From: Firmicutes bacterium ADurb.Bin146
GTDB lineage: Bacteria; Bacillota; Clostridia; DUPQ01
Direction: 5' to 3'
Assembly: GCA_002070475.1 (NCBI GenBank)
Contig: MWDI01000057.1
Location: 1-64,000, forward strand
DNA: 64,000 nt
The notes under the pieces: model-generated
Told to the model about the DNA's origin: nothing
What the model saw: only the letters and a program-made list of their open reading frames with translations
Database searches by the model: none
Shown: positions 49,786 to 63,842 of the stretch, one piece after another
How positions within the stretch are numbered: position 1 is the first letter of the stretch
Layout: the number at the start of each line of letters is the position of its first letter
Made by a program: the position numbers and the translations under genes

Positions 49786-50070
49786 ATGAACAGAAATGAA
49801 TTATCAACAAAACTTGCTCAAGAAAAAAAAATTACAAAACAACAAAGTGATGATATTATTGTCACTCTCTTTAATATTATTAAAGAAGCATTAAAAAATG
49901 AAGGTAAAGTCTGTATAAAAGATTTTGGCACTTTTCTTCTCAAATCAAGAAAAGGAAGAACGCTAAAAGCAATCTCTACAAATGAGATTATAAAAATACC
50001 AGATATAATTGAAGTAAAACTTAAAGTTTCAAAATCTTTAAAGGATTTCTTGAATGAAAAAGAAAATTAA
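49786..50070 (+). CDS. HU family DNA-binding protein
   Basis: HU-type proteins bend and compact DNA as dimers. The 94-residue product starts MNRNELSTKLAQEKKITKQQ and has the core KVCIKDFGTFLLKSRKGR, where most HU proteins have VxIxGFGTFxxxxRxxR, followed by the DNA arm. Asp replaces the usual Gly before FGTF. GGGGGAAAG precedes the ATG at 49786; an earlier in-frame start at 49726 lies inside the methylase gene. It overlaps the fumarase alpha gene by 17 bases, an unusual link of a nucleoid protein and a metabolic operon. Confidence 0.88.
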   Translation: MNRNELSTKLAQEKKITKQQSDDIIVTLFNIIKEALKNEGKVCIKDFGTFLLKSRKGRTLKAISTNEIIKIPDIIEVKLKVSKSLKDFLNEKEN

Positions 50071-50896
50071 TTCAATTGATATTATAAATGCTGTATCTGA
50101 TGCATGTATTGAATGTGCATGTATTTTAAATAAATCCACATATAATTATATAAAAGAAGCTATTAATTCGGAAAGAAATGAAACTGCAAAATATGTTATA
50201 AATGAATTAATTTCAAATGCTGATATAGCAAAACAAGAGCAAATACCTATCTGTCAAGATACGGGAATGGTATTATGTTTTGTAGAGTTGGGAATAAATA
50301 TTGATCTTGATAAACCTATAAAAGATTCTATTAACAAAGGTATTAGTAAGGGATATATCGAAGGTTATTTAAGAAAATCCATTGTTAAAGATCCATTTAA
50401 CAGGATTAATACAAATGATAATACCCCTGGAATCGTATATATTGAGCAAAATGAGACAGATATATTAAAAATTAATATCATGCTTAAAGGTTTTGGAAGC
50501 GAAAATATGAGTTTTGTTAAGATGCTAAATCCGTCAATCTTAAAAGATGATGTCACAAAGATTATTTCAGAAGAAATATGTAAAAGAGCACATAATGCTT
50601 GTCCGCCTATTTTTGTAGGTATTGGTATAGGTGGTACTATAGATTTTGCATCAGTTCTTTCTAAAAAAGCTCTTTTACGACCAGCAGGACAAAAAAATGC
50701 TGATGAAAATTACGCTGAAATGGAAAACAATATTCTGAAATATGTAAATAAATCGAATATAGGCCCAGCTGGTTATACAGGAGATACAACAGCATTATCC
50801 GTCGCGATAGAAGCTTATCCTACACATATAGCTTCTTTACCAGTTGCAGTAACAATACAATGTCATGCTTTTAGGCATAAGGAAATAATATTATGA
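50054..50896 (+). CDS. Class I fumarate hydratase, alpha subunit
   Basis: The alpha subunit of the two-part class I hydratase holds the 4Fe-4S cluster that acts as a Lewis acid. The three expected Cys regions are IPICQDTGMVLCFVELG, HNACPPIFVGIGIGG and VTIQCHAFRH. GFGSENMSFVKMLNPS and GPAGYTGDTTAL are also typical. Length is 280. A close relative, L-tartrate dehydratase alpha, cannot be excluded. The beta subunit starts 4 bases before its end, and isocitrate dehydrogenase follows. Confidence 0.93.
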   Translation: MKKKINSIDIINAVSDACIECACILNKSTYNYIKEAINSERNETAKYVINELISNADIAKQEQIPICQDTGMVLCFVELGINIDLDKPIKDSINKGISKGYIEGYLRKSIVKDPFNRINTNDNTPGIVYIEQNETDILKINIMLKGFGSENMSFVKMLNPSILKDDVTKIISEEICKRAHNACPPIFVGIGIGGTIDFASVLSKKALLRPAGQKNADENYAEMENNILKYVNKSNIGPAGYTGDTTALSVAIEAYPTHIASLPVAVTIQCHAFRHKEIIL

Positions 50897-51420
50897 TTGA
50901 AATAAATACTCCTTTTAATGAAAATATATTGAGTAATTTAAAACCTTTTGACCGAGTGTTAATAACAGGTATTATTTATATGGCAAGAGATCAGGCACAC
51001 AAAAAAATGAAAGAAGAGGGAATACCTTTTAATATAAAAGGACAATGTATATATCATTGTGGACCTTCGGAAGCAAGGGATAATATGATTATCGGTTCAG
51101 CAGGTCCTACTTCAAGTTACAGGATGAATGCTTACATGCCATATTTATTTGACAAAGGACTGAAAGCCTTTATCGGAAAAGGAAAAGTTGAAGATTCTGT
51201 AATTGAAAGTATGATAAGAAATAAATGCGTGTATTTCGGAGCTATTGGCGGTTTAGGAGCAAAATTATCTAAATGTATAAAAAAACAAAATATTATTGCA
51301 TATGAGAATTTAGGAACTGAGGCCTTAAGAGAAATCTATGTTGAAAAATTCCCTGCTATTGTTATAATAAACAGCAATGGAGAATCAATATACGAAAGAG
51401 ACAGGGATAACAATGAATAA
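50893..51420 (+). CDS. Class I fumarate hydratase, beta subunit
   Basis: This is the C-terminal half of class I fumarases as a separate chain of 175 residues. It carries VLITGIIYMARDQAHKKM, IYHCGPSEARDNMIIGSAGPTSSYRMN, and the GKGKV and YFGAIGGLGA segments. It joins the alpha subunit to form the active enzyme. The ATG overlaps the alpha stop by 4 bases, ensuring equal production. Its stop overlaps the isocitrate dehydrogenase start by 8 bases. Confidence 0.93.
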   Translation: MIEINTPFNENILSNLKPFDRVLITGIIYMARDQAHKKMKEEGIPFNIKGQCIYHCGPSEARDNMIIGSAGPTSSYRMNAYMPYLFDKGLKAFIGKGKVEDSVIESMIRNKCVYFGAIGGLGAKLSKCIKKQNIIAYENLGTEALREIYVEKFPAIVIINSNGESIYERDRDNNE

Positions 51421-52624
51421 AATAATAATGATAAATCCAATAGTAGAAATGAACGGAGATGAAATGACCAGGATAATATGGTCGCTTATCAAGGAAAACT
51501 TGATTCTGCCATTTATAGATCTAAAAACAGAATACTATGATCTTGGTCTTAATCACAGAAATGATACAAATGATGAAGTTACAGTTGAATGTGCAAACGC
51601 TATTAAAAAATATAAAATAGGTGTTAAATGCGCAACAATAACACCTAATGCTCAAAGGATGACTGAATATAACCTAAAAAGCATGTGGAAAAGCCCAAAT
51701 GGCACTATTAGGGAAATACTTGATGGAACTGTTTTTCGAGAACCCATTATAGTAAAGAATATCATACCTACAGTATCATGTTGGAAAAAGCCCATCATTA
51801 TCGCAAGACATGCTTATGGTGATGTTTATTCTGCAAGAGAATTCAGGGTAAAATATCCCGGATATCTTAATGTCGAATATCTGCAAGAAAACGGGGAAAA
51901 GCAAAAGATACAGGGTTTTGATTTTGATTCGGAAGGTATTATTCAGATTTTGCATAATAAGGATACTTCAATAACATCATTTGCCAGGTCATGTTTTAAC
52001 TTTGCTCTTGACAGGAAAATGGATTTATGGTTTTCCACAAAAGATACGATATCAAAAAAATATGATCATCATTTTAAAGATATATTTTATCATATTTATT
52101 CTAATGAATATATTGACAAGTTTAAGCAAGCTGGCATTGAATATTTCTATACTCTTATTGATGATGCAGTTGCAAGAGCAGTTCGTTCAGAAGGCGGATT
52201 TATATGGGCACTTAAAAATTACGATGGTGATGTAATGAGTGATATGGTTTCATCTGCTTTTGGCTCTTTAGCCATGATGACTTCAGTTTTAGTTTCACCA
52301 AATAATCAATATGAATATGAAGCAGCACATGGAACTGTTACCAGGCATTATTACAAATATTTAAAAGGTGAGAAGACATCTACAAATCCTATTGCGACTA
52401 TATTTGCATGGACAGGCGCATTGAGAAAAAGGGGAGAAATGGATAATATAAAAGAACTTGAAAATTTCTCTGACATGCTGGAAGAATCCTGTATAGATGC
52501 TATACAGGAAGGTTATATAACAAAAGATTTACAGAATCTGATTAAAAGTGATAAAATCACAGTAATGGATACAGAATCATTTATTATGAATATTAGAAAT
52601 AGATTAAAGGAGAAAATGATATGA
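51413..52624 (+). CDS. icd: NADP-type isocitrate dehydrogenase, eukaryote-like subfamily
   Basis: It decarboxylates isocitrate to 2-oxoglutarate. The sequence follows the eukaryotic/cytosolic dimeric IDH class, not the E. coli class: MNGDEMTRIIWSLIKENLI, CATITPNAQRMTEY, SPNGTIREILDGTVFREPII, RHAYGDVYSAREF, DDAVARAVRSEGGFIWALKNYDGDVMSD and AAHGTVTRHYYKYLKGE. NADP use is inferred from the class. The start at 51413 (MNKIIMINPIVEMNGDE) is preferred to 51377. Length is 403. With fumarase it suggests a partial TCA branch; aconitase and citrate synthase are not in the window. Confidence 0.93.
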   Translation: MNKIIMINPIVEMNGDEMTRIIWSLIKENLILPFIDLKTEYYDLGLNHRNDTNDEVTVECANAIKKYKIGVKCATITPNAQRMTEYNLKSMWKSPNGTIREILDGTVFREPIIVKNIIPTVSCWKKPIIIARHAYGDVYSAREFRVKYPGYLNVEYLQENGEKQKIQGFDFDSEGIIQILHNKDTSITSFARSCFNFALDRKMDLWFSTKDTISKKYDHHFKDIFYHIYSNEYIDKFKQAGIEYFYTLIDDAVARAVRSEGGFIWALKNYDGDVMSDMVSSAFGSLAMMTSVLVSPNNQYEYEAAHGTVTRHYYKYLKGEKTSTNPIATIFAWTGALRKRGEMDNIKELENFSDMLEESCIDAIQEGYITKDLQNLIKSDKITVMDTESFIMNIRNRLKEKMI

Positions 52625-55730: not shown

Positions 55731-57813
<2,083 letters not shown>

Positions 57814-57825
57814 TAAAAAATATTG

Positions 57826-57856
57826 AAAAGGCACAGTCTATAGATTGTGCCTTTTT
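57826..57856 (+). terminator. Terminator after eno
   Basis: AAAAGGCACAGTC pairs with GATTGTGCCTTTT (one G-T) around a TATA loop and continues into T-rich sequence. It ends the glycolytic operon. Its right arm contains the candidate -35 box of the next promoter. Confidence 0.9.
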
Positions 57857-57872
57857 GTTTTTAATATATAAT
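57845..57872 (+). promoter_or_regulatory. Possible promoter for nagB operon
   Basis: TTGTGC (57845-57850), 16 bases, TATAAT (57867-57872). The -10 is perfect; the -35 is weak and lies in the terminator's right arm. The transcript would begin near 57879, just before a strong ribosome site. Confidence 0.45.
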
Positions 57873-57898
57873 AAGAATATTATTATTAAAGGAGGAGT

Positions 57899-57913
57899 AT
57901 GAACAGTCACTGA
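57899..57913 (+). other. Four-codon leader ORF (MNSH) before nagB
   Basis: GGAGGAG (57891-57897) is the best ribosome site in this region, yet it serves ATG-AAC-AGT-CAC-TGA, not nagB, which starts 20 bases later in another frame with a weak site. The leader ORF overlaps a hairpin (ACAGTC 57903-57908 with GACTGT 57912-57917). Translation of it may control access to the nagB start. Confidence 0.5.
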
Positions 57914-57932
57914 CTGTATCATACAGGTTGTT

Positions 57933-58700
57933 ATGTTAATTAAGAATTTTAAAAAAGATAATCTCGATGTATCAATATTTGATTCAAGAAAAGAAATGGG
58001 AAAGCAAGCAGCTAATGATGTCAGTCAGGCAATAAAAAAAGCACTCACTCAAAAAGATGAAATAAATATGATATTTGCTGCAGCACCTTCACAGAATGAT
58101 TTTATTGAATCATTGATTTCATATAAGGAGATACCTTGGGAAAAGATAAATGCATATCATATGGATGAGTATCTAGGAATAGATAAAGATTCTCCACAAT
58201 CATTCGGCAATTTTTTAAAAAAAGCCATTTTTTCAAAAGTAAAATTTAAATCTATAAATTATCTTGATCCTTCAGCAGAAGATGTTACCAAAGAATGTAT
58301 GCGATATGAAGAATTATTAAATAATAACAATATAGATATAGTCTGTATGGGTATAGGAGAGAATGGTCATATAGCTTTTAATGACCCTCCAGTTGCTGAT
58401 TTTTCTGATAAAGTAAAAGTTAAGATTGTAAAATTAGATGAGAAATGTCGTCAACAGCAAGTTAACGATAAATGTTTCAACGAAATTAGTGAAGTACCAA
58501 AATATGCTATGACTTTAACTGTTCCTGCACTGTTTGAAGCAAAGAAACTTTTCTGTATGGTACCTACTGCATCAAAAGCTGATGCAGTGTATATGACCTT
58601 AAACGGTCAAATTGAAGAGAAGTGCCCAGCAAGCATCTTAAGGCTACATTTATCTGCTAAGCTCTATTTGGATAAGCTGAGTGCATCTAAGGTTATTTAA
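57933..58700 (+). CDS. nagB: Glucosamine-6-phosphate deaminase family protein
   Basis: NagB converts glucosamine 6-phosphate to fructose 6-phosphate and ammonia. The 255-residue protein has the NagB/RpiA-fold pattern: MIFAAAPSQNDFIESL, INAYHMDEYLGI, VCMGIGENGHIAFNDPP with the catalytic Asp and His region, and AMTLTVPALFEAKKLFCMVP. The family includes related isomerases, but the GENGHIAFNDP motif favours the deaminase. It is followed by a hexosamine kinase-like gene and a GH123-like gene, fitting amino-sugar breakdown. Its own ribosome site is weak. Confidence 0.9.
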   Translation: MLIKNFKKDNLDVSIFDSRKEMGKQAANDVSQAIKKALTQKDEINMIFAAAPSQNDFIESLISYKEIPWEKINAYHMDEYLGIDKDSPQSFGNFLKKAIFSKVKFKSINYLDPSAEDVTKECMRYEELLNNNNIDIVCMGIGENGHIAFNDPPVADFSDKVKVKIVKLDEKCRQQQVNDKCFNEISEVPKYAMTLTVPALFEAKKLFCMVPTASKADAVYMTLNGQIEEKCPASILRLHLSAKLYLDKLSASKVI

Positions 58701-58710
58701 GGTTAACAAC

Positions 58711-59811
58711 ATGATTACTGAGACAGAAATTTCTGAAAAATTCCGTTACAATGGATACATTAAAAGCATAAAACCAATAGGTGCTGGACACATAAATAAG
58801 ACCTATATGGTAGAGACAAGCGAAGAAAAATATACTCTTCAGTTAATTAATACTGCAATATTCAAAGATCCAACAGGTCTTATGCAGAACATATATAATG
58901 TTACTGAATTTCTTAAGAAGAAGATTATATCAAGAGGCGGAGATGTAAAAAGGGAAACATTATCTGTGGTTAAAACTCATGATGACTGCTTATTTTATAA
59001 AGATTCTTTCAATCGATACTGGAGATCATACATTTTTATCGATGATGTGATTACTTATCAGGAACCTAAAAATCTAAAAGTTACATATTATAGCGGATAT
59101 GCATTTGGAGATTTTCTTAACATGCTTTCTGATTATGATATGAACACACTTAATGAGACAATAAAGGATTTTCATAATACTGTTAAAAGATATAAAGATT
59201 TTTGCAAATCTGTGAATGATGATATTGCTAATAGAGCATCTTTTATAGAAAAGGAAATAGAATTCATTAATAAACATTCTGAAGATTATAATATTATATT
59301 AAATTATATTAATGAAAATAAAATACCATTAAGAGTCACGCATAATGATACAAAGTTAAATAATCTTCTGTTTGATAAAAAATCAGATAAGCCGATATGC
59401 ATACTTGATTTGGATACTGTAATGCCAGGATCTTTACTATATGATTATGGAGATGCCTTAAGAATTTCGGGTTCATCGGCTGCTGAAGATGAAGAAGACC
59501 TTGATAAAGTCCACTTTGTAATGAATAACTTTATATCTTTTACTGAAGGTTTTCTTTTAGCTACAAAAGACAGTATAAATGAATTGGAACTATCTCTTTT
59601 ACCATTTTCAATTAAATTGATAACTCTAGAGATAGGAATGAGGTTTTTAACAGATTATCTTAATAATGATGTATATTTTGCAGTTCATAAAAAAGATCAC
59701 AATTTATTCAGAGCAAAGACTCAATTCAAACTTGTGACTGATATTGAGAATAATATGGAACAGATGAACATGATAGTAGAAAGAATCGCGAGGAAATATG
59801 AAAGATTATAA
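58711..59811 (+). CDS. N-acetylhexosamine 1-kinase-like phosphotransferase
   Basis: The protein has the aminoglycoside-phosphotransferase fold. RVTHNDTKLNNLLFD (catalytic loop) and ICILDLDTVMPGSLLYDYGDALR (metal-binding DxD region) match the NahK/LnpB group that phosphorylates GalNAc or GlcNAc at C1. An early glycine-rich element IGAGHINKTYMVET binds ATP. Length is 366 from ATG 58711; an in-frame GTG at 58681 inside nagB is less likely. Next to nagB and a GH123-type gene, a role in using GalNAc/GlcNAc released inside the cell is reasonable. The exact sugar is unproved. Confidence 0.82.
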   Translation: MITETEISEKFRYNGYIKSIKPIGAGHINKTYMVETSEEKYTLQLINTAIFKDPTGLMQNIYNVTEFLKKKIISRGGDVKRETLSVVKTHDDCLFYKDSFNRYWRSYIFIDDVITYQEPKNLKVTYYSGYAFGDFLNMLSDYDMNTLNETIKDFHNTVKRYKDFCKSVNDDIANRASFIEKEIEFINKHSEDYNIILNYINENKIPLRVTHNDTKLNNLLFDKKSDKPICILDLDTVMPGSLLYDYGDALRISGSSAAEDEEDLDKVHFVMNNFISFTEGFLLATKDSINELELSLLPFSIKLITLEIGMRFLTDYLNNDVYFAVHKKDHNLFRAKTQFKLVTDIENNMEQMNMIVERIARKYERL

Positions 59812-61462
59812 AGTTAAAGCGATTTCATCACTGGAAAAATGTTTTTATGATGATGATATCAGCGAGAAAAAAGATTTAAATTTATTTTCGTGTTTGAAAA
59901 ATGAAAAGTTGAATTTTCAAATAGCCTTTACAATCAAATCAGATAATCTAGTGGACAAAGTACCTTGCTTTTTCCATATTGAATCAGAATTAACAGATTT
60001 CATTAGCATTTACAAGATAGAGTCTGTTCCATGCAGATTTCCTGTATATCATAATACTGTTGAAAGGGATTATCAGAGAAATAGTCCATATTGTTATCCT
60101 GATTTATTGGACCTTTATGATAAATCTGATAATATTTATTTCGTGCCTGACCTTCTTCAATCGCTTTTTATTGAAATTAATTTGTCTTCAAATTTAAAAT
60201 TTCATGGTTTGCATAATTTGAGATGTTTTTTTACAAATTCAGAAAAAGAAATTTTAGCTGAGATTAATGTGAAAATCAATATTATCAACTCTAACTTATC
60301 TGATGATAGGATAATATTTACACAGTGGTTTCATGGCGACTGCCTAGCATCTTATTATAATGTAAAACCATTAAGTAAAAAGCATTTTATTATAATGGAG
60401 AATTTCTTGAAAACAGCTTATGAATATGGGATTAATGCAGTACTGACGCCTGTTCTTACACCTCCTCTCGACACAAAAATTGGAGGTGAAAGACCTACTA
60501 TGCAACTTGTCGATATTGTAAAAACCGATAATGGATACAAATACTCATATGAGATGTTAGATAAGTGGATAAGCATGTGTAAAGCGATAGGATTTGAGTA
60601 TTTTGAAATATCACATTTTTTTACTCAATGGGGTGCGTTGCATGCTCCAAAAGTTATTGCTTCAGTTAATGGGCGAAAAAAGAAAATTTTCGGATGGGAT
60701 ACTGACGCTTCATCAGAGGAATATATTAAATTTTTACGAGATTTTATAAGTTGTTTATTAACTCATTTGAAAAATCTTGGTATTGAAAAGAAATGTTTTT
60801 TTCATATTTCTGATGAGCCGAATGAAAAAAATCTTGAAGGATATAATAAAGCAAAAAAAAGTATTAGCGATCTTTTCGACGGTTATCTTGTTACTGATGC
60901 TCTGTCCTCCATCGAATTTTATAAAAAGGGCATTGTTAACTTTCCAATTCCATCAACAGATAAAGTAGAAGATTTTATTAATTATGGTGTTAAGGATTTA
61001 TGGACATACTATTGTTGTGGCCAATATCTTGAAGTAAGTAATCGGTATATTGCTATGCCATCATATAGAAACAGAATAATTGGAACTCATCTATATAAAT
61101 ATAATATAAAGGGATTTCTGCATTGGGGTTACAATTTTTATTATAACCAGTATTCTAGAAAACTTATTAATCCTTTTTTGATAACTGATGGAGATTTTTT
61201 TGCTCCAAGCGGTGATGCTTATTCAGTTTACCCTGGTGATAAAGGTCTTCCGGTAAAATCATTAAGACTAGTCATATTCAATGAAGCTTTACAGGACATA
61301 AGAGCATTTAAGAAACTTGAATCTTTAACTTCTTATGATTATGTTATGAATATTATTGAAAATCATGGTGAAATAACATTTAAAAAGTATCCTAGAAAGA
61401 CTGACTATATAATTGAACTTCGAAAAATAGTAAATAATGAGATATCTAAGTTCTCTGTATAA
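59798..61462 (+). CDS. GH123/DUF4091-type putative N-acetyl-beta-galactosaminidase
   Basis: The 554-residue protein resembles DUF4091/GH123 proteins: a beta-rich N-terminal domain (1-170), then a barrel with FTQWFHGDCLASYYNV, YGINAVLTPVLTPPLD, FEISHFFTQWGA and FHISDEPNEKNL. In the last, adjacent Asp-Glu match the catalytic pair of GH123. FLHWGYNFYYNQY, GDFFAPSGDAYSVYPGDKGLPVKSLRLV and a final RDI-type DUF4091 segment follow. There is no signal peptide, so it should act in the cytoplasm on imported oligosaccharides. It overlaps the kinase gene by 14 bases. Specificity for GalNAc is inferred from family and context. Confidence 0.82.
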   Translation: MKDYKVKAISSLEKCFYDDDISEKKDLNLFSCLKNEKLNFQIAFTIKSDNLVDKVPCFFHIESELTDFISIYKIESVPCRFPVYHNTVERDYQRNSPYCYPDLLDLYDKSDNIYFVPDLLQSLFIEINLSSNLKFHGLHNLRCFFTNSEKEILAEINVKINIINSNLSDDRIIFTQWFHGDCLASYYNVKPLSKKHFIIMENFLKTAYEYGINAVLTPVLTPPLDTKIGGERPTMQLVDIVKTDNGYKYSYEMLDKWISMCKAIGFEYFEISHFFTQWGALHAPKVIASVNGRKKKIFGWDTDASSEEYIKFLRDFISCLLTHLKNLGIEKKCFFHISDEPNEKNLEGYNKAKKSISDLFDGYLVTDALSSIEFYKKGIVNFPIPSTDKVEDFINYGVKDLWTYYCCGQYLEVSNRYIAMPSYRNRIIGTHLYKYNIKGFLHWGYNFYYNQYSRKLINPFLITDGDFFAPSGDAYSVYPGDKGLPVKSLRLVIFNEALQDIRAFKKLESLTSYDYVMNIIENHGEITFKKYPRKTDYIIELRKIVNNEISKFSV

Positions 61463-61520
61463 TTATTAAAGATTACTTTTGTATATGTAACAATACAGCA
61501 ATACAACATATCTTATATAA

Positions 61521-63842
61521 ATGAGTATTAAGAAATCGTTTATTCCATTACTTACTATGTATGCGATTATTGCAGTCATGATGAGCACAAACTGCAGTAA
61601 TACATTGATTTACTTATTTGGAATACTTATATTCATTTCTTATTATATTTACTCTAAAGATAAAAATGTATCATTTAAAACTAAGCTTTTCATTGTGATT
61701 TTATATTTTATGATTTATATATTTTTCTTTTTCTATTCTAATATTGTATATTCGAATATAAACAAGGATCAGATGCATAATGATAGAAAGTATGTAGTTT
61801 TGACAGGATATATTTCAGATCTGACTAAACATGAAGAGGATAGTGAGGAATATCTTTTAGTATCTGATAATGGATATAAATATAACATAATTATTAGCAA
61901 TAGTTATATTCAAATTGGAGATATTGTTAAAATTACTGGAAAAGTATATAAACCGAATACTCCAGGAAATAAAGGTCAGTTTAATTATCGGAATCATTCT
62001 TACTCAAAAAATATCTCTGCTGATATATATGTGAACAAAGTAAATATATTAATATTAGGATATAAATCGATTCCTCGCTTTCTAGGTAAGATAAGAAGTT
62101 GGGCAGTTGATAGAGTAATGTTAAAATTGAAAGAAGATAAAATAGGTATAGCAACAGCTCTAATAACAGGTTCATATGTATATATAGACAACAATACAAA
62201 GGAAATTTTCCAAAAAAGCGGGTTATCACATATACTTAGTATTTCAGGTACTCATTTCAATATACTAATTTTACCTATATACTCGATTTTTGCTCTATTG
62301 TGTAAAAATAAAAGAATATCACTTATTATAACAATAATATTTATTATATTATTACTTGTATTTACAGGTGCTAGAGTAGGAGCTATAAGATCTGCATTAT
62401 CTTTGATAACAATATACCTATGTCGTTTCTTTTTTCTTGACTCAAATAAATTATTGCCTATATGTTTTTCGGTACTTGTTATTATTTTTTTAAACCCATT
62501 ATCAATATTTGATACAGGATTCATAATGTCATATGCATGTGTATTATCTATTTACATATTCAGCGACAAAATAAGAAGCATTATTTATTATTTAATAAAT
62601 AAAATCAAAGTAGTGCTTGATGAGAAAATTTTTAAAAACCATATTATTCTAGAGGATTATTATAGAAGAATTAAAAGTTCAATCATAAAAAAAATAATGG
62701 ATAGAACAGTATCAGTTATGAGTTTTTTATTATCCATACAACCATTGATGATTTTAATAACATATAGATTGTTTTTATGTATATACCCTTATTCTCTTAT
62801 TTCGAATATGCTAACTTTTTTACTTATTATTCCTTTGCTCATTTCATTATGGCTTGGAATAATAATTCCTACGATTTTTTGTCCTGTATTTTCTTTTCTA
62901 AGTTCTGTTCTGATTAAAATAGCATCATATATATGTTATCTTCCTTTCTCGAAATTTTATATTAAACACATACCGGATTTAATTTTTCTTACGTTGATTA
63001 CTGTATATGTCTTAATTAAATTTAAAATACTGAAAACTAAAATCCTTAAATTAATTATGTATATGATAGCATGTATATCATGTTTTATTACGCTGTTGGT
63101 TTACTATAATACCAAAGTGGTATTTCTTGATGTGGGACAAGGAGATAGTACAATAATCACAACAGCATCAGGATATAGTATCCTCATAGATACAGGAAAA
63201 TACATTGAATCTTCCTGTCTTGCTTTTTACACTGGGAATAAAATAAATACAATAATACTTACACATTCAGATTCAGATCATAGTGGATATATAATGAATA
63301 TCTTAAATGATTTCAAAATAGAAAACATTTATCTTCCAGACACACTAGATATTGCTAACATAAATCTATTTAATGAGATTCGATCAAATTATCCTGATGT
63401 CAATATTAATTTAGTTAAAAGAGGTGATTTTATTGAAGATAGTAATATTTATATAAAAGTTTTAAATCCAAATCCACAAAATGAATATACTGATGTAAAT
63501 GATTCAAGTATTGTTTTCTCTCTATATACGGAATCATGTTCAATTCTTTTTACTGCTGATGCAGATTTGAAGAAGATATCATTAGATAATTTCATAAAAT
63601 GCGATATTATAAAAATACCTCATCATGGTGACTCAAGCGTAATTGATGAAAATTGCTTGCAATATATATCACCAAGTGTCGGGATTATTTCAGTGGGAAG
63701 ATATAATTCATATGGTCATCCTGAAAAAAAGACATTAGAATATCTTCATAAAATGAATGTTAAGGTACTCAGAACAGATATTGACGGTTCCATTACTATA
63801 TACATGCTAAATAAAAAATACTATGTTTATAAATACAGATAA
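61521..63842 (+). CDS. comEC: ComEC/Rec2 DNA-uptake channel protein
   Basis: ComEC is the membrane channel that carries single-stranded DNA into competent cells. The N terminus is hydrophobic, followed by an OB-like extracellular domain (about 85-170; YVVLTGYISDL, VKITGKVYKPNTPGNKGQFNYRNH). The Competence domain holds many membrane segments and SGLSHILSISGTHFNILI. A C-terminal MBL domain has VFLDVGQGDSTII, THSDSDHSGYI, FTADADLKKI and IPHHGDSS. Length is 773, complete. No clear ribosome site precedes ATG 61521. holA follows as in many Bacillota. Confidence 0.94.
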   Translation: MSIKKSFIPLLTMYAIIAVMMSTNCSNTLIYLFGILIFISYYIYSKDKNVSFKTKLFIVILYFMIYIFFFFYSNIVYSNINKDQMHNDRKYVVLTGYISDLTKHEEDSEEYLLVSDNGYKYNIIISNSYIQIGDIVKITGKVYKPNTPGNKGQFNYRNHSYSKNISADIYVNKVNILILGYKSIPRFLGKIRSWAVDRVMLKLKEDKIGIATALITGSYVYIDNNTKEIFQKSGLSHILSISGTHFNILILPIYSIFALLCKNKRISLIITIIFIILLLVFTGARVGAIRSALSLITIYLCRFFFLDSNKLLPICFSVLVIIFLNPLSIFDTGFIMSYACVLSIYIFSDKIRSIIYYLINKIKVVLDEKIFKNHIILEDYYRRIKSSIIKKIMDRTVSVMSFLLSIQPLMILITYRLFLCIYPYSLISNMLTFLLIIPLLISLWLGIIIPTIFCPVFSFLSSVLIKIASYICYLPFSKFYIKHIPDLIFLTLITVYVLIKFKILKTKILKLIMYMIACISCFITLLVYYNTKVVFLDVGQGDSTIITTASGYSILIDTGKYIESSCLAFYTGNKINTIILTHSDSDHSGYIMNILNDFKIENIYLPDTLDIANINLFNEIRSNYPDVNINLVKRGDFIEDSNIYIKVLNPNPQNEYTDVNDSSIVFSLYTESCSILFTADADLKKISLDNFIKCDIIKIPHHGDSSVIDENCLQYISPSVGIISVGRYNSYGHPEKKTLEYLHKMNVKVLRTDIDGSITIYMLNKKYYVYKYR

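Follow-up and report, generated by a model that had tools for sequence, protein, structure and literature searches.

A 64,000-nt stretch of DNA from Firmicutes bacterium ADurb.Bin146 (assembly GCA_002070475.1), called the window here, whose coordinates are the positions of contig MWDI01000057.1, carries three consecutive genes encoding a NagB-like protein (NagBx), a homologue of N-acetylhexosamine 1-kinase (NahK) and a hydrolase of family GH123 (Table 1). All three open reading frames (ORFs) are intact, lie on the + strand and follow each other in the order and at the coordinates given in a preliminary description of this DNA. Judging from the encoded sequences, the trio probably serves to free N-acetylgalactosamine (GalNAc) from short sugar chains within the cell and to begin its breakdown. 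The three genes had been described as overlapping; the kinase and hydrolase genes do share 14 bases (59798-59811), but a gap of 10 bases separates NagBx from the kinase gene, provided that the latter begins at ATG 58711, the start that fits the alignment to NahK from Bifidobacterium longum. In the ORF list the kinase frame extends to an upstream GTG start at 58681.

Table 1. Genes of the trio and the terminator-like element upstream of it, in window coordinates
Feature	Position	Strand	Evidence or context
NagB-like protein (NagBx), 255 aa	57933..58700	+	PF01182 above cut-off; nagB equivalog below cut-off
N-acetylhexosamine 1-kinase (NahK) homologue, 366 aa from ATG	58711..59811	+	phmmer E 1.3e-92 to 4ocu
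Predicted GH123-family (Group 4-like) beta-N-acetylgalactosaminidase, 554 aa	59798..61462	+	PF13320; 8k2l E 9e-144
Intrinsic terminator-like hairpin with T tail, 15-pair stem	57824..57857	+	3' of eno-like gene

The hydrolase scores 356.7 bits against the GH123_cat model (PF13320; cut-off 23.1), in agreement with its earlier assignment as GH123-like. Among solved structures it is closest to 8k2l (483 bits) and 8k2n (310 bits), both named as monosaccharide-releasing beta-N-acetylgalactosaminidases, followed by 8q8h (159 bits), 8k2j (86 bits) and 5l7r (44 bits); 221 of the 538 residues aligned to 8k2l are identical (41%). We take 8k2l to be NgaP2, a member of Group 4 together with NgaLy, NgaBl and NgaBf, because W196, D244, W298 and F489 of NgaP2 coincide with the same amino acids in this chain when its numbering is shifted by 3. 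These four residues and D297 are named for NgaP2 in the Group 4 report (PMC11087588), but residue 297, printed there as D, falls on Gln in both the 8k2l chain and the window protein (Q277). The hydrolase agrees with 8k2l at W177, D225, Q277 and W278, four of the five individually named contacts of NgaP2, whereas the equivalent of F489 is Ala469, a position that varies among the 74 aligned GH123 sequences (4 from the genus, the other 70 from among the 77 loci outside it that are considered below). Its DE motif, D339-E340, aligns to the DE of 8k2l, with D in 73 of the 74 sequences and E in all of them. W177, Q277 and W278 lie within the search patterns used to collect the relatives, which biases the conservation seen at these positions across the larger set. 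According to the discussion section of the same report (PMC11087588), Group 4 remains part of an enlarged GH123 in CAZy. By sequence, the hydrolase is a GH123 protein closest to the Group 4 monosaccharide-releasing beta-N-acetylgalactosaminidases; besides the alanine at position 469, its coupling to NahK sets it apart from the enzymes of that group. No hydrophobic N-terminus is visible by eye, and this apparent lack of a signal peptide points to a cytoplasmic enzyme.

The kinase matches the Pfam APH model (45.3 bits, cut-off 23.2), and its best solved relative is B. longum NahK (4ocu), with 159 of 343 aligned residues identical (46%). Its residue D213 aligns to residue 228 of the 4ocu chain, which becomes 208 after subtraction of an assumed 20-residue tag; we take Asp208 to be the catalytic Asp of NahK, and D213 its equivalent. 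In line with the preliminary description, the protein is a clear relative of NahK; it keeps the catalytic Asp and is predicted to phosphorylate N-acetylglucosamine (GlcNAc) or GalNAc at C1. Internal release of beta-linked GalNAc followed by phosphorylation at C1, which had also been proposed, is well supported by homology and by the residues retained in the two predicted enzymes.

The first gene had been named nagB, a label that goes too far. NagBx belongs to the PF01182 superfamily (Glucosamine_iso, 70.8 bits, cut-off 27), but it scores 143.2 bits against the nagB equivalog TIGR00502, whose cut-off is 236.9, and 75 bits with the galactosamine-6-phosphate isomerase model. A paralogue at C16:101009 reaches 267.3 bits with the nagB equivalog and is the canonical nagB of this genome. 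NagBx has a phosphate loop AAAPSQ and the motif FND in place of TGx(S/T)P and FNE, which are found in the four canonical-type enzymes aligned. The catalytic residues of Escherichia coli NagB, which we take to be D72, D141, H143, E148 and K208, were used to place the corresponding positions: the equivalents of D72, H143 and K208 are kept, the position of E148 holds Asp, and that of D141 holds Asn, a residue also present there in 2bkv, which carries the name of a deaminase. A structure prediction from a five-row alignment had a mean pLDDT (predicted local distance difference test score) of 45 and was discarded. In a class-level sample of 341 genomes, the NagBx clade (at least 45% identity) occurs in 41, two of them with partial matches, and the next matches do not exceed 40%; the APSQ-type loop is present in all 35 NagBx sequences compared outside the genus, and FND replaces FNE in 34 of these. 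Since NagBx lies below the cut-off, carries a changed loop and a changed catalytic Glu, forms a separate clade and coexists with a canonical nagB, it should be given the superfamily label and not be called nagB, although it may still deaminate glucosamine-6-phosphate (GlcN6P). At another locus, L008:544-2664 (G000 C21), another, strongly diverged NagB-like protein, scoring 54 bits with nagB, directly precedes a NagA-like amidohydrolase.

The trio recurs in all four genomes of its genus that were sampled. An order-level sample of 11 genomes includes four of this genus (the window genome and three others); the hydrolase is 70-73% identical in the three others, has only a 27% match in one genome of another genus and has no match in the remaining six (0/6). 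NahK and, at E 1e-30, the NagB-like gene are present in the same four of the 11. Across these four genomes the trio proteins are 70-83% identical, and the order NagB-like, NahK, GH123, comEC-like gene is kept in all of them; an eno gene directly precedes the trio in three, and G002 has two extra genes between eno and NagBx (the names eno and comEC were assigned by eye). A separate trio, GH123-NahK-NagB, the reverse of the order in the window, is found in a Ruminococcaceae lineage (L025), where NagB is canonical-type by its motifs and NahK comes from another branch of a FastTree tree. Because order and location are kept in the four genomes, the trio is not a chance arrangement, a possibility that the separate L025 trio likewise rules out. 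L026, closely related to L025 (tree distance 0.16), has NahK fragments only and was not counted as independent. Two lineages thus appear to have assembled the same three predicted activities separately, and since each brought them together, this supports a functional link among them, although the count is small.

Terminator-like hairpins number two in the region against 1.0 expected, and the one in Table 1 is the only one on the + strand of 57700-61700. Because this hairpin with its T tail follows the eno-like gene, the trio is probably a transcription unit of its own; membership in a glycolysis operon was rejected on account of the hairpin and of the two extra genes of G002 at this point. Upstream of the glycolysis genes, at 50054-52624, two-part fumarate hydratase-like genes are followed by an isocitrate dehydrogenase-like gene (by eye).

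We favour, at somewhat better than even confidence, the reading that the three genes form a small unit for the salvage of beta-linked GalNAc inside the cell, with a route through Leloir genes to fructose-6-phosphate. Short oligosaccharides terminated by beta-GalNAc would enter the cell by a putative transporter, the Group 4-like GH123 enzyme would free GalNAc by substrate-assisted catalysis, and NahK would turn it into GalNAc-1-phosphate. GalT and GalE of a Leloir operon would then convert GalNAc-1-phosphate into uridine diphosphate (UDP)-GalNAc and UDP-GlcNAc, with release of GlcNAc-1-phosphate, from which GlmM or a related mutase would form GlcNAc-6-phosphate. NagA would remove the acetyl group, and a NagB-type deaminase would give fructose-6-phosphate; NagBx would most likely perform this last step, as a divergent deaminase of GlcN6P or of a closely related amino-sugar phosphate. 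The genes that connect these steps had been expected elsewhere in the genome, and candidates for them, namely galT-galK-galE, glmM, nagA and nagB, are indeed there. galT, galK (by Pfam) and galE stand in a row on C22 (galT_1, 200 bits, cut-off 102; galE, 432 bits, cut-off 262). A check of the window genome, the only one searched for these two genes, found nagA at C57:75129, 14 kb downstream of the trio on the same strand (263 bits, cut-off 226), and glmM on C34 (512 bits, cut-off 448). A second nagA-like gene lies on C28 (231 bits, cut-off 226), and the genome has four mutase-family genes in all.

Several observations weigh against this salvage route. Contamination of the assembly is given as 5.4%, so that any one gene located on a different contig might be foreign; GalT and a second PF01182 protein occur in each of the four genus genomes, and for this reason are not likely to be contaminants. 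The GalT on C22, which shares its gene row with galactokinase, belongs to the usual galactose type and is not known to act on GalNAc-1-phosphate. Inspection by eye showed no transporter next to the trio, either in the window or at the genus loci, no genome-wide search for an uptake system having been made. The role of NagBx at the last step is weakened by its failure to reach the nagB cut-off while a canonical nagB exists. The combination is also rare outside the genus. A set of 80 of the 309 GH123 relatives comprised 3 from the genus and 77 from outside it, retrieved with flanks of up to 8 kb on each side and often less. Only two of the 77 have NahK in the retrieved stretch; NagB is also present in one of these two (L025), a NagA-like gene stands in two other loci, and any further neighbour family is limited to seven loci at most. 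Conversely, NahK occurs in the stretch of none of the 36 NagBx loci outside the genus (L164-L199, from 35 genomes; G021 and G145, with partial matches, were left out, and L197 lies outside the residue counts given above), where NagBx keeps company instead with NagA-like amidohydrolases and Gfo/Idh/MocA oxidoreductases. This context is unlike that of classic GlcNAc use. Creatininase-like and PreA-like proteins, recognized by eye, also recur at these loci.

These neighbours raise the possibility, which we regard as real but rather doubtful, that the hydrolase and the kinase salvage GalNAc and that NagBx, together with the NagA-like amidohydrolase encoded on C28, acts on some other N-acetylated amino-sugar phosphate; the shared operon would then reflect a shared source of substrates, not consecutive steps. 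An amidohydrolase of this type adjoins NagBx in 12 of the 36 loci and lies within 5 kb of it in 14, and among the three NagA-like proteins of the genome that were compared, the C28 protein is nearest to it (40-48% identity, versus 27-33% to other NagA-like proteins). The separate canonical nagB and nagA and the altered phosphate loop and catalytic Glu of NagBx point the same way. However, NagBx keeps the equivalents of D72, H143 and K208 (by the E. coli residue labels assumed above), and in the Ruminococcaceae trio the two partners stand with a NagB of canonical type. A still more tentative extension, unlikely in our judgement, is that NagBx represents an uncharacterised family of deaminases or isomerases, widespread in Clostridia and with its own deacetylase partner, directed at an amino-sugar phosphate other than GlcN6P, and that it joined NahK and GH123 in this genus to give a GalNAc route differing from the NagB and tagatose pathways.

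The trio might also serve biosynthesis, with GalNAc returning to UDP-GalNAc for use in the cell envelope while the NagB-like protein balances amino-sugar pools. UDP-GalNAc can be formed directly from the predicted product of NahK, C34 carries a row of nucleotidyltransferase, mutase and epimerase genes, and the lack of a visible transporter beside the trio would fit; a NagB-type protein and a glycosidase nevertheless point to breakdown, and the parallel trio of L025 carries a canonical-type NagB, so that we hold this explanation to be improbable. Least credible, and very improbable, is a pathway free of nucleotide sugars, in which a mutase would yield GalNAc-6-phosphate for deacetylation by the C28 protein and NagBx would convert galactosamine-6-phosphate into tagatose-6-phosphate: mutase-family genes are at hand, and NagBx, a divergent paralogue, has a deacetylase-like family linked to it, but its score with the galactosamine-6-phosphate isomerase model is lower than that with nagB (75 versus 143 bits), and an established route is available through GalT and GalE.

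As to the source of GalNAc for the favoured salvage route, mucin or glycolipid glycans had been suggested. This is unsupported by anything found: the window contains no pointer to a host, and the records of the three nearest relatives (L015-L017) name no gut host. Two of these three presumably belong to a biogas-plant series.

Elsewhere in the class, NahK mostly has a different partner. It is matched at E 1e-30 in 103 of the 341 genomes, and in 16 of the 20 best loci outside the genus (L200-L219) a nucleotidyltransferase stands beside it (for example L216:2985-6086); GalE and NagB are each in the stretch in seven of the 20. At L215:3167-6080, near NahK, the nucleotidyltransferase is fused to GalE. 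Pfam confirmed two GalE and two nucleotidyltransferase proteins, the L215 fusion being counted in both, and the others were assigned by cluster identity. At L203:2535-4127, near NahK and a NagA-like gene, a 530-aa protein apparently joins NagB to a ROK-type kinase domain, the latter recognized by eye. The nucleotidyltransferase found beside NahK matches 3pnn and PF00483 and, by our own identification, looks like GalY, which has been predicted as a replacement for GalT (PMC5583593). Its neighbourhood with NahK suggests that GalY may handle N-acetylhexosamine 1-phosphates. A one-sequence query, run without a control, found no match to this nucleotidyltransferase in the 11 order genomes; an 11-row alignment left three of the genus without a match and gave G003 a weak one (36 bits), while all six control genomes scored at least 418 bits, two of them (G136 and G062) having contributed rows to the alignment. 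The genus thus shares with these clusters a NahK-family kinase for N-acetylhexosamines, but has GalT where they have the GalY-like protein. Since GalT is present and a strong GalY-like match is lacking in the genus, it fits the GalT-or-GalY pattern predicted in PMC5583593, and a bifidobacteria-like GalNAc route via UDP-sugars that does not involve a GalY-like partner is possible.

In bifidobacteria, N-acetylhexosamine is phosphorylated at C1 inside the cell, according to PMC6668579 and PMC8106489, and the trio resembles their galacto-N-biose/lacto-N-biose pathway in this respect. NahK, GalT and GalE are present in both systems. In the window, however, a GH123 hydrolase occupies the place of the bifidobacterial GH112 phosphorylase, a NagB-like gene belongs to the cluster, no ATP-binding cassette (ABC) transporter was seen in it by eye, and GalT and GalE are encoded on another contig. 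A genome search for GH112 (PF09508) returned no match, and the control genomes gave none either. The GH123-NahK-NagB combination was not found described in the literature searched, which weakly supports its absence from print; the trio is a plausible unit for GalNAc salvage that consists of known enzyme families in a newly seen combination, the uncharacterised NagB-like clade being its unusual part.

The predicted activities, substrate and flux would together make up a concrete intracellular route for GalNAc in uncultured Clostridia, in which a hydrolase takes the place of the bifidobacterial phosphorylase. The label "glucosamine-6-phosphate deaminase" can cover a distinct clade, and as this clade was seen in 41 of the 341 class genomes, correcting the label would affect the reconstruction of amino-sugar pathways in a fair share of the Clostridia.

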